From Aequorivita xiaoshiensis (GTDB taxonomy: Bacteria; Bacteroidota; Bacteroidia; Flavobacteriales; Flavobacteriaceae): DNA of 64,000 nt. Below, piece by piece: positions 24,952 through 31,278 of the stretch. Every line of letters begins with the position of its first letter. The stretch's first letter is position 1. The notes beneath the pieces were generated by a model. That model was not told the origin of the DNA, made no database searches, and was given only the letters and a program-made list of their open reading frames with translations. The position numbers were made by a program, and so were the translations under genes. The stretch covers positions 62,001 through 126,000 of the forward strand of contig NZ_JAIRBB010000004.1 in NCBI RefSeq assembly GCF_022008395.1, written 5' to 3'.

Positions 24952-26466
24952 TTATTCCCAATCAGGCATAAATGCATTTTCAAATAGAAGCGTTCTACTT
25001 TCGCTATCACCTATTTCTAATTGATAAACATCTTTTTGAGAAATACCATCGTTAGAGGTATTCGTAAATATTACAAAGGCTTCATTTGGTGAGAATATGG
25101 GTTCTAAATCGTTAGTACCATTAGGTTTTTCACCAGAAATATCTGTCGTTGTATTTGTAACTATATCGTATAGGAATATTCTAGAATTCAATCTTCTATA
25201 ATCTAATGGTTCAAAGCCATCCACATCATAGGAATATACGATTTTAGAATTTGTTACAGAAATATCCAATCCTCCCGCACCGCCAGGAAGTCCCGTAATA
25301 AGAGTATCTAACACTGTCCCACTAAAATCTATAGTAAAAATTGAAATATCATATCCACTTAAATTATTTGTTTTCAACACTATCAGATCGCTATTTTCAC
25401 TAACAGCTATCTCAGAAATTAAAGAACCATCGGTTGTTTGATATACTAGTTCCAAGTCTTGTCCGCTTGAACGAATTCGATATAATTTATCCAATACTGG
25501 GAAGTATATACGATCACTCGTTGGAGGCCAAGATATATTTATTTCATTCAAATTAAAACCATTAGGCCTTACGTTTGAGGTAACTTTAACCTTATCAGTA
25601 CCATCACGGTTCATAGTATATATATCGGCTTGGGCACCAGTTGTTTGTAGGTAAGCAATTCTATTTGCAGCAACATTTCTACGTGGCCTGTAACTATTTG
25701 TGTTTTCGGAAGTTAACTGAAATTCATTACCTTCTTCGTCAGCTGAAAATATCACATTATTCCCATTGATGTTTCTGACGAAAAGAAATCTATTCTCTAT
25801 GGGTGCTGGTTTTACCTTAAAAGTTCCGACAGGGCTTAATACGGGCGGATTATACTCATCTGCGGCTGTTACTTGCCAGAAATATTGTGCTCCAAGTATT
25901 AATTCTGGATATAAATATATAGTATCATTTAAATCGTCAAATCTTTCTACCACATCATTTTGATCGTTTCGCAATTCTAATTCGAATGTTATTGGATCTC
26001 CTTCTGGATCTATTGAACTCCATTGAAATAGTGCTTCTACACCGTCAATAACCTCATTTTCTGCTGGCATAAGTAATTCAGGTGCAGAAGGTGGTCTATT
26101 GTTTGCAGTAGAAACCTCCATATCGAAGATTACATTTACTGTTTTATTTGCTATAACAGTTGCTGGCTCATAACGCGCTAAATATCCATCTAAACGAGCT
26201 AAAACCGAATATTCACCCGCGGGAACGTTTTCTAAAATAAAATATCCCGCATTATCTGTAAATATCGTGCTGGTAACTGGACTTGTAGATATTCTTACAT
26301 TTTGCAATGGTTCGTTTGTTCCTTCGATTACAGCCTTCCCGATAATTTTACCATAGGCATTTTCGTCAATTCGGTCTTCATTACAGCCAACCAAAACGAC
26401 AAATAACAAGCATAAGAACTTTATATATGTATAACCTCTTCTCATCTGTATGTTATATTTGTTCAT
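24952..26466 (-). CDS. Curli-operon lipoprotein with beta-propeller
   Basis: A 504-residue lipoprotein (signal KFLCLLFVVLVGC, Cys28 from the first Met; a Met eight codons in is an equally possible start). Domains in order: a carboxypeptidase-regulatory-like beta sandwich (about 38-112, GKAVIEGTNEPLQNVRISTS); a fibronectin-III-like domain (about 124-215, PELLMPAENEVIDG, FQWSSIDPEGDPITFELELR); and a TolB/PD40-type beta propeller (about 225-504, IYTMNRDGTDKVKVTSN, PIFSPNEAFVIFTN). It starts 30 bases after csgG stops, making it the sixth curli operon gene. It could be a surface-exposed accessory that anchors or coats fibres; that role is inferred only from position and domains. Confidence 0.82.
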   Translation of the reverse strand: MNKYNIQMRRGYTYIKFLCLLFVVLVGCNEDRIDENAYGKIIGKAVIEGTNEPLQNVRISTSPVTSTIFTDNAGYFILENVPAGEYSVLARLDGYLARYEPATVIANKTVNVIFDMEVSTANNRPPSAPELLMPAENEVIDGVEALFQWSSIDPEGDPITFELELRNDQNDVVERFDDLNDTIYLYPELILGAQYFWQVTAADEYNPPVLSPVGTFKVKPAPIENRFLFVRNINGNNVIFSADEEGNEFQLTSENTNSYRPRRNVAANRIAYLQTTGAQADIYTMNRDGTDKVKVTSNVRPNGFNLNEINISWPPTSDRIYFPVLDKLYRIRSSGQDLELVYQTTDGSLISEIAVSENSDLIVLKTNNLSGYDISIFTIDFSGTVLDTLITGLPGGAGGLDISVTNSKIVYSYDVDGFEPLDYRRLNSRIFLYDIVTNTTTDISGEKPNGTNDLEPIFSPNEAFVIFTNTSNDGISQKDVYQLEIGDSESRTLLFENAFMPDWE

Positions 26467-26496: not shown

Positions 26497-27942
26497 TTAA
26501 TTGTTAAGCGGTGATATTTCAAGTTGTTCTCCTTTATTATAAATTTTCTTTTTTGATCTAGAAGAACCGAAGTGATAACTCAAACCTAAACTCATTGTAT
26601 AGTAAAAGTCATCCCGCCTTCCGTGAGGTAAATTGTCTATTTTATCTGAAAATGTAACATCCCATTCTCCATTAAGCACAAATGACACTCTAGGAGATAC
26701 ACGATATTCTAAGCCCGCTCCAAATTTTAAATTAAAGAAGCTATCCCAACGTTGAAGGTGGCCTATAGGACTATCATCTGCGAAAAGCAAAATTCCTGGA
26801 CCTGCGTAAAAAATAGGGCTTAACCTATCATTTGGCAACATATTATACTCAACATTCAAGCCTTGAGTAAGCCACCAATGATTAATTTCTGGAGTAGAAT
26901 TGAGCCTAAAGAACTGAAAATCCGTCGCTACCCTTAATTCTGGAATAATAGAGTATTTATATATAAATCCAAATTTGTAATCTAATATTCCAGTTGAATA
27001 ATCGCCATCCACTAAAGCCATTCCGGCATTAAAGTTAAACTGGCTGTTATAATTATTCTCTAAATACCGTCTTTCGTATAATCCTGTTGATTCTTCAACT
27101 TCTTTCTCAAGTAAATATGCATCAACAATTTCTTTATTTTTTTCAACTCCTTCTTTAGTCGACCACAGTTTATCTTTTATTCCTTCGATAATTAACATCT
27201 CCACAGATTTTTCAATAGCTTCTTGCACTGCCATTTGCGCTGGTTCATTTTTAGTAAAACCAGTTTCAACTTCAAGTAAACGTTGAAAATTTACGTATTT
27301 AAAAAGACTAACATCCACAGCCTGCGATAGAACGGTTTTAGACACATAAACTGTTTTTAGCACTTCCCCAGTATTTGTAGATACTGCACGTAAGTAAACC
27401 GTAATTCTATCTTGTCTATATTGTGTAGAACCTCCTACCCCAAAATATTTTGCCCCAGCACCACCAGTTAGAATATTGGAATCATAAGAAACAACGCCAC
27501 CTTCTAATAAAACACCAGCAAACAATAGTGGAGGTAGTCGTGTAGGAGAATTATCGTTAACCCTTCTATGTTCCTCACGGGTGGACCGTATAATCTGACG
27601 TTCATTTAAAAGGTTACTAATATTTTCACGTTCTATAGGTCTAAACCACTTAGAATCCTCTAAAGCTTTAATCAAAATTGTAGTTGCACCTTGTGTAATT
27701 GCGGTACTAAATGTACTTCCATTTTCTATATTCTTATATTGCCCGGTTTGGTCTTTAAAATTATAAACACCAGCAATAATCGCTTCTTCTGGCTCAGGAA
27801 GAGTATAAAGGGTTTTCGTTTGTTTGGTAATTTCACCAATACGTGCTTCTTGTGGACCTAATGGTTGGTTAAAATATGCGCCACAACCCCAAAAAAAGAG
27901 TGAGAGAGCTACAATACAAAACTTTGTAAGTGTATTCTTCAT
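26497..27942 (-). CDS. csgG: Curli secretion channel CsgG with C-terminal barrel-like extension
   Basis: CsgG is the nonameric outer-membrane channel that exports curlin subunits. Here a lipoprotein signal (LSLFFWGC, Cys20) is followed by the CsgG domain (about 30-262): EEAIIAGVYNFKDQTGQYK, ALEDSKWFRPIERENISNLL, LLFAGVLLEGGVVSYDSN and GGAGAKYFGVGGSTQYRQD are strong family matches. E. coli CsgG ends at 277 residues; this protein runs to 481. Residues about 300-465 form repeated amphipathic strands (FNFNAGMALVDGDYSTGIL, LRVATDFQFFRLN, LSPIFYAGPGILLF, MSLGLSYHFG) like an OmpA/OmpW-type barrel. It lies between csgF (7-base gap) and the propeller lipoprotein. Confidence 0.93.
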   Translation of the reverse strand: MKNTLTKFCIVALSLFFWGCGAYFNQPLGPQEARIGEITKQTKTLYTLPEPEEAIIAGVYNFKDQTGQYKNIENGSTFSTAITQGATTILIKALEDSKWFRPIERENISNLLNERQIIRSTREEHRRVNDNSPTRLPPLLFAGVLLEGGVVSYDSNILTGGAGAKYFGVGGSTQYRQDRITVYLRAVSTNTGEVLKTVYVSKTVLSQAVDVSLFKYVNFQRLLEVETGFTKNEPAQMAVQEAIEKSVEMLIIEGIKDKLWSTKEGVEKNKEIVDAYLLEKEVEESTGLYERRYLENNYNSQFNFNAGMALVDGDYSTGILDYKFGFIYKYSIIPELRVATDFQFFRLNSTPEINHWWLTQGLNVEYNMLPNDRLSPIFYAGPGILLFADDSPIGHLQRWDSFFNLKFGAGLEYRVSPRVSFVLNGEWDVTFSDKIDNLPHGRRDDFYYTMSLGLSYHFGSSRSKKKIYNKGEQLEISPLNN

Positions 27943-28435: not shown

Positions 28436-29227
28436 CTAGTAATACTTTTGAGTGTGTTTTCTCTCTTTGTATTGTTGTAAAAACCAATAAACTCTTCTTA
28501 CCGCAATGTCGGCCATCTGTTTTAAATACTCTGTTTGGGGTCTAACAAAAAATTCCAAAACTTTTTCATTGGCCACTAAAACTTCTATTTTAGTGTTATT
28601 GTTTAACGACAAAACCTCTTTAATAGTAACAATTTCTGACCCGTTTATATTATTCAATCTGTAATTTTGATCAAACATTTTATAAAAATCCCTACCTGGT
28701 TTAGTCTTGGTATCTTCGGTAACAATTCCGCCTATCATAATACCATCCACAGGCTTTGTACTAACATCAGGCGAAGGGTTTACTGCCCTTTCTCTTTCTA
28801 TACTATCATTTTTTTGCAAAGCCAAATCTTCTTCTGTCGGATTAATTACTTTTCGATCCATACCCAATGGTGTATCTTTGTCGTCATAAATTAATAACAA
28901 CACAATTACCCGTTGGTTCTCACTTACATTTATAGAGGTTGTAGAAAGATTTTTTTTCTCCCCGATTTCAAGCACAAATCTACCTTTTTGATCGTTTTTA
29001 GAAGTGTTGGAATTATCGTCTTGATTTTTAATTACAGAAAGCGTATAATGTAAACTTTGGTTTGATACAGTTTTATTTACAGCTAAGCCAGTAATATTAT
29101 ATGTATTGCCATACTGCTGTATATTAATTTCAGCTTCAATTTGAGAATTATACATTTGCGAGTAAGCAATGCTAGAGAAAAACAGCAACAAGTATATGGG
29201 TAGGCTATATTGTAAAATTTTGTACAA
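28436..29227 (-). CDS. csgE: Curli assembly protein CsgE fused to a CsgH-like domain
   Basis: CsgE caps the periplasmic side of CsgG and selects substrates. This protein has 263 residues, about twice the size of E. coli CsgE (129). The signal peptide is about 1-23. Residues about 25-125 resemble CsgH, the immunoglobulin-like curlin-aggregation inhibitor: SNTSKNDQKGRF and LSTTSINV fit the CsgH pattern. A linker (126-160) leads to the CsgE core (161-255): GIVTEDTKTKPGRDFYKMF, IVTIKEVLSLNNNTKIEVLV and FFVRPQTEYLKQMAD. The start lies 4 bases after the csgB-like stop. Confidence 0.9.
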   Translation of the reverse strand: MYKILQYSLPIYLLLFFSSIAYSQMYNSQIEAEINIQQYGNTYNITGLAVNKTVSNQSLHYTLSVIKNQDDNSNTSKNDQKGRFVLEIGEKKNLSTTSINVSENQRVIVLLLIYDDKDTPLGMDRKVINPTEEDLALQKNDSIERERAVNPSPDVSTKPVDGIMIGGIVTEDTKTKPGRDFYKMFDQNYRLNNINGSEIVTIKEVLSLNNNTKIEVLVANEKVLEFFVRPQTEYLKQMADIAVRRVYWFLQQYKERKHTQKYY

Positions 29228-29231
29228 AATT

Positions 29232-29744
29232 TTAATTTTTTAAATTCCGAATAATAACCGTCTGATTTCTACCTTTCATAGTAACCATCATTTTATCGGA
29301 CATTGAATTTTGGCTGCCAAGCCGAATTAAGTTCTGGTTTGCGCCGAATTGCACAACATTTGCGGCATGAAAACCATTTTTATTGCCACTAATATCTGTA
29401 AAGCTATGATTGTCACCTATTTGAAGAACATCTTCGGATACCTTATTTGCAGATACAAAAACACCTATATCATTTCGGTTACCAATTTGAAACAATCGCA
29501 CATCACTTTGATTTGATTTTGTAAAGGTAAATGCGGTATTCTCATTCCCAATTTGTTGAACAAAAACACTTTTACTAGTATTACTTGCAGGAAGATTTTG
29601 AGATGCTACGACATTATAAAGCGAAGGTTTAGCATGAATTTTTTCTAAAGCTTTATTGTCCTTGTCTTTATATGTTTGAGCAGAAGACACATTTACAAAA
29701 CAAAAATGAGCTAAGACTATAATTATAATATTGAAAGTTTTCAT
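29232..29744 (-). CDS. csgB: CsgB-like minor curlin / nucleator
   Basis: A 170-residue protein with a signal peptide (about 1-22), a non-repeat spacer to about residue 60, and then four to five imperfect curlin repeats of 22-24 residues: QIGNENTAFTFTKSNQSD, QIGNRNDIGVFVSANK, QIGDNHSFTDISGNK, QFGANQNLIRLGSQN and a short basic end KGRNQTVIIRNLKN. Few, divergent repeats and a basic last repeat resemble E. coli CsgB, which nucleates CsgA polymerisation at the surface. The CsgB role is inferred from this likeness and from its place between the major curlin and csgE. Confidence 0.85.
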   Translation of the reverse strand: MKTFNIIIIVLAHFCFVNVSSAQTYKDKDNKALEKIHAKPSLYNVVASQNLPASNTSKSVFVQQIGNENTAFTFTKSNQSDVRLFQIGNRNDIGVFVSANKVSEDVLQIGDNHSFTDISGNKNGFHAANVVQFGANQNLIRLGSQNSMSDKMMVTMKGRNQTVIIRNLKN

Positions 29745-29850
29745 CTTTATATTTTTTAATGGTCTTGTTGAAGATATTGATTTTTTTGAAAATTAACAAC
29801 TAGAACAAATCCTTATTAATTTTAATTTTTATAATCCCTTTATAAAATAA

Positions 29851-29881
29851 GTATAAGAGCATTGTTTAGATGCTCTTATAC
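29851..29881 (-). terminator. Intra-operon hairpin between csgA and csgB
   Basis: GTATAAGAGCAT and ATGCTCTTATAC form a perfect 12-bp stem with a 7-base loop, about 50 bases after the csgA-like stop. On the minus strand it is followed by TTATTTTATAAAG, which is only partly T-rich. It could be a leaky terminator or a stabiliser of the csgA mRNA 3' end. Confidence 0.6.
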
Positions 29882-29931
29882 CATTTTTATTATAACTGAT
29901 AATATATGAGCTTATTAACTCGATAAATTAT

Positions 29932-31209
29932 TTAGTTCTGAAAAGTAACATCAACGTTACCATTACCAATTTGATCTACATGACTCCAGTTTCCTAGACC
30001 TACTTGACCTACAAGGCTAAAGTTACTATTTCCATATTGATGGTTGTAACTTGTATGACCGAAACCAGCCTGTCCAACTAAACTTATGTTGTCATTACCA
30101 GATTGTAACACTTCAGAATAATTAGCCAAACCTACTTGAGCAACAATACTTGTATTATCATCACCAAATTGGGTCACCATAGATGTATTAAATGCGCCAG
30201 CTTGTCCTACATAGCTATAGTTGTCATTTCCAATTTGAAAAACATCAGAGTCATTAAAGAAACCTACCTGACGCGTTGTACTTTCGTTATCATCACCTAA
30301 CTGAATAGTCAAAGCATTGTTATCATTACCTAACTGATAAGTAGTAGATTCATTATCGTTTCCATATTGACCTGTACCAGCCCAGTTATCGTTACCGATT
30401 TGATCAACATCACTATCATTAAGATCTCCAATTTGCTCAACGATAGAAGTATTGTCATCACCTATTTGATCAACATCACTAGTATTGGCAATACCATCCT
30501 GATAAACCATTGAGCTATTGTCATCACCTAATTGATAAACATCACTACTATTAAGGATACCATATTGTTCAACTTGTGAATCATTATCATCACCAATTTG
30601 TTCTACTTCGCTATCGTTAAACCAACCATCCTGCATTACTGAAGAAGTGTTGTCGTTACCACCTTGAAATACATCAGAGTCGTTAGCCCATCCGTCTTGC
30701 ATTACAGAAGACGTATTGTCATCACCCCACTGCTCTACTGTCGAGCTATTGGAAAGACCAATTTGCAATACTGAACTCACGTTATCGTCACCCCACTGAT
30801 CTACATAAGAGTCGTTATCAATTCCATATTGTTCAGTTGTACTTAGGTTATCATCACCATCTTGCCAAGTATATGCATCGTTATCATTGCCAACCTGCAA
30901 GGTACCAGCGGTGTTGCGATCACCTTCTTGTAGCGTTCTAGCATCGTTATCATTTCCTAATTGAGCAGTTCCTGCAAGATTCAAATTACCTTCTTGATCA
31001 GTATCAGAATCATTTCTGTCTCCTAATTGCATTGTTCCATTTACATTTAGGATTCCCGTTTGGTCAACATCAGAATTGTTGGAGTCCCCCACTTGTATCG
31101 TTCCATTAACATTTAAAAGTCCAGTTTGAGTAACTGTACTTGTGTTGTTCTGCGCGAACATTACCGTCCCCGCCATTAGCGCCATAGCACTTAGAATTAC
31201 TTTTTTCAT
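29932..31209 (-). CDS. csgA: CsgA-like major curlin with 36 eleven-residue units
   Basis: A 425-residue secreted amyloid subunit. The signal peptide (about 1-20, ending MFAQ) and a 7-residue lead are followed by exactly 36 contiguous units of 11 residues (28-423). Each unit starts Q-x-G, and all but one have Asn at position 6, for example QIGDDNTSIVE. Two units make one strand-loop-strand layer, so the model is about 18 layers, against five in E. coli CsgA. By my count the repeats hold about 54 Asp, 4 Arg and no Lys, a very acidic fibre suited to salt water or cation binding. First gene of the operon. Confidence 0.93.
   Translation of the reverse strand: MKKVILSAMALMAGTVMFAQNNTSTVTQTGLLNVNGTIQVGDSNNSDVDQTGILNVNGTMQLGDRNDSDTDQEGNLNLAGTAQLGNDNDARTLQEGDRNTAGTLQVGNDNDAYTWQDGDDNLSTTEQYGIDNDSYVDQWGDDNVSSVLQIGLSNSSTVEQWGDDNTSSVMQDGWANDSDVFQGGNDNTSSVMQDGWFNDSEVEQIGDDNDSQVEQYGILNSSDVYQLGDDNSSMVYQDGIANTSDVDQIGDDNTSIVEQIGDLNDSDVDQIGNDNWAGTGQYGNDNESTTYQLGNDNNALTIQLGDDNESTTRQVGFFNDSDVFQIGNDNYSYVGQAGAFNTSMVTQFGDDNTSIVAQVGLANYSEVLQSGNDNISLVGQAGFGHTSYNHQYGNSNFSLVGQVGLGNWSHVDQIGNGNVDVTFQN
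29941..31128 (-). repeat. 33-bp coding tandem repeats in csgA
   Basis: 36 units of 33 bases (1188 bases) coding the curlin repeats, with no insertion or deletion between units. Some adjacent 66-bp pairs are nearly identical, for example those encoding units 13-14 and 15-16 (DNTSSVMQDGW in both). Confidence 0.95.
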
Positions 31210-31260: not shown

Positions 31261-31278
31261 CAAGGAAAAATTTCCTTG
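31261..31278. promoter_or_regulatory. Perfect inverted repeat in the csgA leader
   Basis: CAAGGAAA-AA-TTTCCTTG, an 18-base perfect dyad between the -7 box and the csgA start. It could be a protein operator or an mRNA leader hairpin. Confidence 0.55.

Follow-up and report, generated by a model that had tools for sequence, protein, structure and literature searches.

The locus of Aequorivita xiaoshiensis considered here raises the question of what kind of protein is encoded by a gene whose product divides almost entirely into 11-residue repeats, and of what use such a long and acidic chain would be to the cell. The gene lies within the window, the 64,000-nucleotide stretch of DNA that was analysed (Table 1), and it very probably belongs to a curli (type VIII secretion) operon and encodes the long, CsgA-type subunit, which would be exported unfolded, seeded by a CsgB-like protein and assembled into a 37-strand solenoid fibre. 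The assignment is slightly weakened by the fact that the product passes the NCBIfam model for CsgB (221.9 bits, cut-off 165) and misses that for CsgA (123.3 bits, cut-off 160), both of which are enterobacterial models that give scores inflated by repeats. Since CsgA and CsgB are distinguishable in the Gammaproteobacteria only, according to a published survey (PMC3521004), the CsgB call is read as an effect of the repeats. The product is therefore described as a curlin and, by length and gene order only, as a putative CsgA-type ('major') one.

Table 1. Features of the curli locus and its surroundings, in positions of the window
Feature	Position	Strand	Basis
csgA-like gene, 425-aa curlin	29932..31209	-	ORF; PF07012 E=6.4e-51; PDB 8c50 E=1.2e-32
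Putative signal peptide, residues 1-19	31153..31209	-	cleavage site judged by eye from sequence
Extra N-terminal strand, residues 22-28	31126..31146	-	strand motif N-x-x-x-x-x-Q; absent from the count in the preliminary description
36 gapless 11-residue units, residues 28-423	29941..31128	-	sequence division
csgB-like gene, 170 aa, basic	29232..29744	-	profile of 18 relatives vs PDB 8enq E=4.9e-6; alignment; charge
csgE gene, N-terminal CsgH/CsgC-like stretch and C-terminal CsgE domain	28436..29227	-	profile matches
csgF, 120 aa	27950..28312	-	PF10614 E=4.8e-18
csgG, 481 aa, C-terminal extension weakly OMP beta-barrel-like	26497..27942	-	PF03783 E=3.8e-64
Sixth gene adjoining operon, CarboxypepD_reg-like, weakly TolB-like, acidic	24952..26466	-	profile matches
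Inverted repeat in the gap separating csgA from the csgB-like gene	29842..29890		two 21-nt arms with 86% complementarity and a 7-nt spacer
Palindrome AAGGAA-N4-TTCCTT upstream of csgA	31261..31278		sequence

The regularity of the array is evident at several levels. The preliminary description of this DNA had divided the product into 36 gapless 11-residue units, a division that proved exact, and it had correctly given the unit residues as Gln at position 1 and Gly at position 3 in all 36 units and Asn at position 6 in 35, with His in unit 33. Its figure of about 18 stacked layers was of the right size, the exact value being 18.5, since the additional N-terminal strand brings the total to 37. 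Self-matching at a lag of 22 residues reached 209, compared to 32.8 ± 5.4 (maximum 52) in 2000 shuffles, and the Pfam Curlin_rpt model matched 16 stretches of the product with 170.4 bits against a cut-off of 20.7. The strands, which start two residues past the presumed cleavage site and end one residue short of the C-terminus, follow the pattern N-$-Psi-$-Psi-$-Q, in which Gln is present in 37 of 37 and Asn in 36 (the other being His), and the core-facing residues are drawn from a small set (28 Ser, 6 Ala, 2 Asn and 1 Asp at Psi1; 23 Val, 13 Thr and 1 Asn at Psi2), while both arcs contain four residues throughout. An assembly artefact is ruled out as the source of this array, because the genome of Aequorivita sinensis (L051, on the same contig as L052) carries a matching protein of 425 aa and 36 units that is identical at 398 of 425 residues (94%).

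The N-$-Psi-$-Psi-$-Q pattern has been published as the motif of centrosymmetric curlins (PMC10192328), and N, Psi1, Psi2 and Q are nearly alike in motifs a and b of the Aequorivita product, a feature that places it in the centrosymmetric (CS) class. The nearest sequence in the PDB is 8c50, by its title the curli subunit CsgA of Pontibacter korlensis, which presumably corresponds to R15.5 (A0A0E3UX01), a protein that Sleutel et al. (2023) placed in the centrosymmetric class. Both proteins have the motif in both half repeats, an odd number of strands and acidic residues concentrated on one face (PMC10192328). They differ in that the Pontibacter subunit has 31 strands rather than 37 and, judged by eye, one arc that is a residue longer in several repeats, whereas the Aequorivita arcs are all of the same length. 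A phmmer comparison with enterobacterial CsgA (8enq/8enr, 'Major curlin subunit', which we take to be of E. coli origin) gave E=1.2e-4 only, and the two share curlin repeats, a csg operon and, as far as the gene content predicts, CsgG-type export. In contrast to the 18.5 repeats and centrosymmetric core of the Aequorivita product, E. coli CsgA has five repeats and a non-centrosymmetric core (PMC10192328). Closest in neighbourhood and array are A. sinensis and two Aequorivita metagenome-assembled genomes (MAGs; L048 and L049), of which the latter two differ in having 38 units and arcs that are mostly NR where the A. xiaoshiensis product has DD or ND.

Structure prediction of the monomer had been suggested as a check on the stacked-layer fold. 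AlphaFold2 run on the single sequence gave a model too poor for use (pLDDT 53.8), and a run with a 33-row alignment drawn from the more regular curlins of our survey gave an all-beta repeat model of strands and loops only (pLDDT 83.7, pTM 0.80), without a significant fold match. Because pLDDT in the aligned model drops over mature residues 253-278, where most values lie under 50, and its first Foldseek match in the PDB, again 8c50, was not significant (E=0.093, TM 0.22-0.24), it does not confirm the global geometry. The proposed two-strand solenoid rests on the sequence motif and the homology to 8c50 more than on this model.

By analogy with the homologues named here, we infer a route for export, nucleation, screw symmetry, fibre formation and use of charge. 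The csgA-like chain, with its putative signal peptide, would stay unfolded in the periplasm with the help of a CsgH-CsgE-like protein and of the acidic residues in the chain itself, would exit through CsgG/CsgF and would be nucleated on the basic CsgB-like subunit. It would then fold into a 37-strand beta-solenoid whose 18.5 layers of ~0.48 nm would amount to ~8.9 nm per subunit, and successive subunits would stack head to tail, related by a twofold screw, the acidic face alternating sides along the fibre. A twofold screw is expected because the strand number is odd, as it is in the 15.5-repeat homologue, for which AFM, cysteine cross-linking and models favour a head-to-tail twofold screw (PMC10192328). 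The likeliest use of length and charge would be a stiff, highly charged matrix fibre, in which the acidic residues would limit premature aggregation and bind cations outside the cell.

The subunit had been described beforehand as strongly anionic, which it is, with a net charge of -63 and a computed pI of 4.05 for the mature chain. The earlier composition of 4 Arg and no Lys holds for both the array and the mature chain (the signal peptide contains 2 Lys), whereas the count of about 54 Asp becomes 56, with 11 Glu besides. The charge is distributed unevenly, since face A is more acidic than face B (23/57 vs 8/54 positions; Fisher p=0.003, unadjusted) and the outside of the last seven strands bears almost no charge (2 of 21 exposed positions acidic vs 29 of 90 before them). 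Strong negative charge is not a fixed property of the group, because among related flavobacteria the full-length regular curlins span net charges from -110 (L109) to -1 (L066) and 0 (L067).

It may be that the acidic charge is mainly a gatekeeper, one that slows the folding of a very long amyloid chain in the cell and has no special cation role outside. Charge acts in this way in the CsgA of Citrobacter and E. coli, for which Asp gatekeepers and salt effects are described (PMC9900396), and the outward strand positions of 33 regular curlins (a gapless run of 16 or more units, flavobacterial group only) also speak for such a role, being acidic (mean 0.342 Asp/Glu), rarely basic (0.013 Lys/Arg) and no more variable between proteins than shuffled units. 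On the other hand, the faces do vary beyond shuffles in a wider set of 112 curlins (sd 0.108 vs 0.057 for Asp/Glu, 0.058 vs 0.028 for Lys/Arg), sister species differ in whether their arcs are acidic, neutral or basic, so that total charge is not constant, and D paired with R/K gated more strongly than D alone in the published work (PMC9900396).

We also entertain, with slightly less confidence, the possibility that the fibres are cross-linked or mineralised in seawater through Ca2+ or Mg2+ bound to their acidic faces and arcs, the preliminary description having suggested that the charge may suit seawater or divalent cations. The 15.5-repeat curlin displays an Asp/Glu grid on one face (Sleutel 2023, PMC10192328), to which the one-sided acid bias of the Aequorivita product is similar, and addition of 30 mM CaCl2 and phosphate gave encrusted single fibrils of that homologue (PMC10192328). 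The same treatment ended sheet formation rather than promoting it (PMC10192328), and both this result and the near-zero net charge of the regular curlins of L066 and L067 speak against the possibility.

Returning to the stiff, charged matrix fibre as the preferred use of this protein, a comparison of the gene with that of A. sinensis indicates which of its parts are constrained. Across 180 core codons (positions 1, 3, 6, 8 and 10) there are 11 synonymous and 0 amino-acid differences, while 4 synonymous and 11 amino-acid differences were counted in the 108 arc codons and again in the 108 face codons (8 and 22 for the pooled 216). The core is under purifying selection, and the surface changes freely.

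In the 33 regular curlins, arc positions 4-5 differ between proteins far beyond shuffles in both Lys/Arg (sd 0.157 vs 0.049, maximum 0.076) and Asp/Glu (sd 0.171 vs 0.062, maximum 0.085), in statistics that ignore the kinship of the curlins compared. With a limit of 0.15, chosen after inspection of the data, 17 proteins have acidic arcs, 12 basic and 4 neutral. None of the 33 falls into the acidic and the basic class at once; among all 112 curlins, one protein does. For example, between the csgA-like product and that of L048, 160 of 170 core positions are identical and none changes charge, compared to 51 of 102 face positions (21 charge-class changes) and 24 of 68 at arc positions 4-5, where there are 30 charge-class changes, 10 of them from Asp to Arg.

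When placed on a CsgG tree (31 rows, one curlin per locus, built by a quick method, with 14 of 28 inner branches starred and 7 weak), arc class requires 6 changes by parsimony, compared to a shuffled mean of 12.8, and the starred branches alone force 3 changes for acidic, 2 for basic and 3 for neutral arcs, each class taken singly. Arc class thus appears to be inherited yet re-set, also within five Aequorivita. Part of the contrast between constant faces and varying arcs may stem from the choice of regular arrays. In addition, local charge pairing could explain part of the arc theme, since among the basic-arc proteins an acidic residue at position 7 or 9 more often accompanies a basic arc (90/133 vs 72/149, p=0.001). 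This theme, in which each protein would have one charge identity in its arcs, is possibly new; it was not found in a limited search of the open-licence literature that included the consulted sections of PMC10192328. A bolder proposal, which we consider rather unlikely as it stands, is that regular flavobacterial curlins keep their faces acidic while the arcs provide an array-wide, per-species charge identity that is re-set as a block, the resulting edge ladder serving as a species tag. If so, arc edge ladders would govern which fibres bundle or seed together, or what the fibre edge binds.

To place the protein among its relatives, Flavobacteriaceae and near kin were fetched by csgF/csgG similarity (the best 80 of 257 matches in one fetch). 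In the window and 98 loci (L031-L128), 146 ORFs from 95 sources contained at least 5 QxGxx[NHDS] motifs, and 138 of these ORFs lay clear of the locus edges. The idea that the Aequorivita product is unusually long was rejected, since 132 distinct curlin-like proteins reach 150 aa away from a locus edge (the A. xiaoshiensis product included), of which 53 are longer than 425 aa and 11 exceed it in motif number, with up to 65 motifs against its 36; 10 of the 132 are also more negative per residue. The repeat-length survey that had been proposed therefore did not single out its overall length, and what stood out was the gapless run of 36 units, surpassed among the loci fetched only by two 38-unit sisters (G003 and G005, 447 aa). 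Luteirhabdus pelagi and Thermobacterium salinum (L071 838-3963 and L072 822-3947) each encode a curlin of 1041 aa, with 65 QxGxx[NHDS] motifs and a net charge of -139, and have another curlin gene next to it. Curlins with 4 to 62 repeats have been reported in a study that comprises 8079 unique CsgA sequences (Sleutel 2023, PMC10192328), and in an earlier survey that included Bacteroidetes the highest number of repeat motifs was 22 (Dueholm et al., 2012, PMC3521004). Length and acidity are therefore already in print, and this is one more curlin of a described and structurally solved type.

Two generalisations within the genus were also rejected. A conserved odd strand number is contradicted by Aequorivita soesokkakensis (G024, L050), whose curlin of 262 aa and 21 units has, by eye, 22 strands, and a genus-wide regular curlin by the observation that, of 28 Aequorivita members searched (the host genome of the csgA-like gene included), 22 have csgF, 5 of these with a regular curlin and 17 with a less regular one. 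A csgF match was found in 0 of 31 genomes of other genera in the same sample; csgF/csgG searches elsewhere found csgF in many other Flavobacteriaceae. The Aequorivita set extends the known series with one curlin of 18.5 layers, two sisters of 19.5 and one of 11, and it constitutes a natural test set in which genus, neighbourhood and core are shared while length, parity and arc charge differ (37 strands acidic, 39 basic, 22 neutral), so that length, screw symmetry and edge charge could be separated.

The genes around the array are those of a curli operon, with CsgE, CsgF and CsgG all over their Pfam cut-offs and encoded on the same strand downstream of the csgA-like gene. It is very improbable that the gene encodes a non-amyloid beta-solenoid merely resembling a curlin, as might be argued because regular short repeats with outward Thr, Ser or Asp are found in adhesins and ice-binding proteins too, given that it precedes csgE, csgF and csgG and matches both the curlin model and the solved curlin 8c50 by sequence. 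Within the 98 loci, best matches were present for csgF in 98, csgE, csgG and the sixth gene in 97 each, the csgB-like gene in 96, purM in 89 and glnN in 68; as csgG served to retrieve 77 of the loci and csgF the other 21, the counts for these two genes partly reflect selection, five genomes are counted twice, some loci are cut by contig ends, and presence was counted while order was only looked at. The nearest CsgG among named records is that of A. sinensis (98%).

The csgB-like product has a computed pI of 9.74 without residues 1-22. It is named CsgB-like only, as it falls below the Pfam curlin cut-off (13.4 bits vs 20.7), and 11 of 18 family members match that model at E<=0.1. The sixth gene is not among the usual Csg proteins, yet it has the homologues counted above; in L066 and L067 the best match is not directly behind csgG.

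Other proteins of the operon have additional regions. The N-terminal stretch of the csgE product matches the CsgH model at 1.3e-7 (31.5 bits, cut-off 35), and among 20 family members scanned at E<=0.1 the CsgH model matched 18, the CsgE model 20 and Pfam CsgC 8; a PDB profile search with the csgE product returned CsgE matches only. Bacteroidetes appear without csgC in the 2012 survey (PMC3521004), CsgH subfamilies have been placed in Bacteroidetes (PMC4838910), and a CsgH-CsgE fusion was not found in a limited search of the open-licence literature that included sections of these two papers and of PMC10192328. The C-terminal extension of CsgG comprises ~200 aa and matches PF13505 under its cut-off (E=8.3e-6); solved CsgG chains have up to 285 aa and cover profile positions 8-278 of 469, and across 97 loci CsgG has a median length of 470 aa.

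Two non-coding elements flank the csgA-like gene. Our guess is that the inverted repeat might act as a 3' stabiliser of the csgA mRNA or as an attenuator, in which case the long curlin could be made in greater amount than the CsgB-like protein. The Bacteroidetes -7 promoter pattern did not occur above chance in the 3.1 kb surrounding csgA (7 found vs 5.3 expected). The upstream palindrome, a possible operator or leader hairpin, is present ~50-70 bases before the csgA start in 5 of 5 regular-type Aequorivita loci (L048 and L049 by eye), with middle letters that vary among them.
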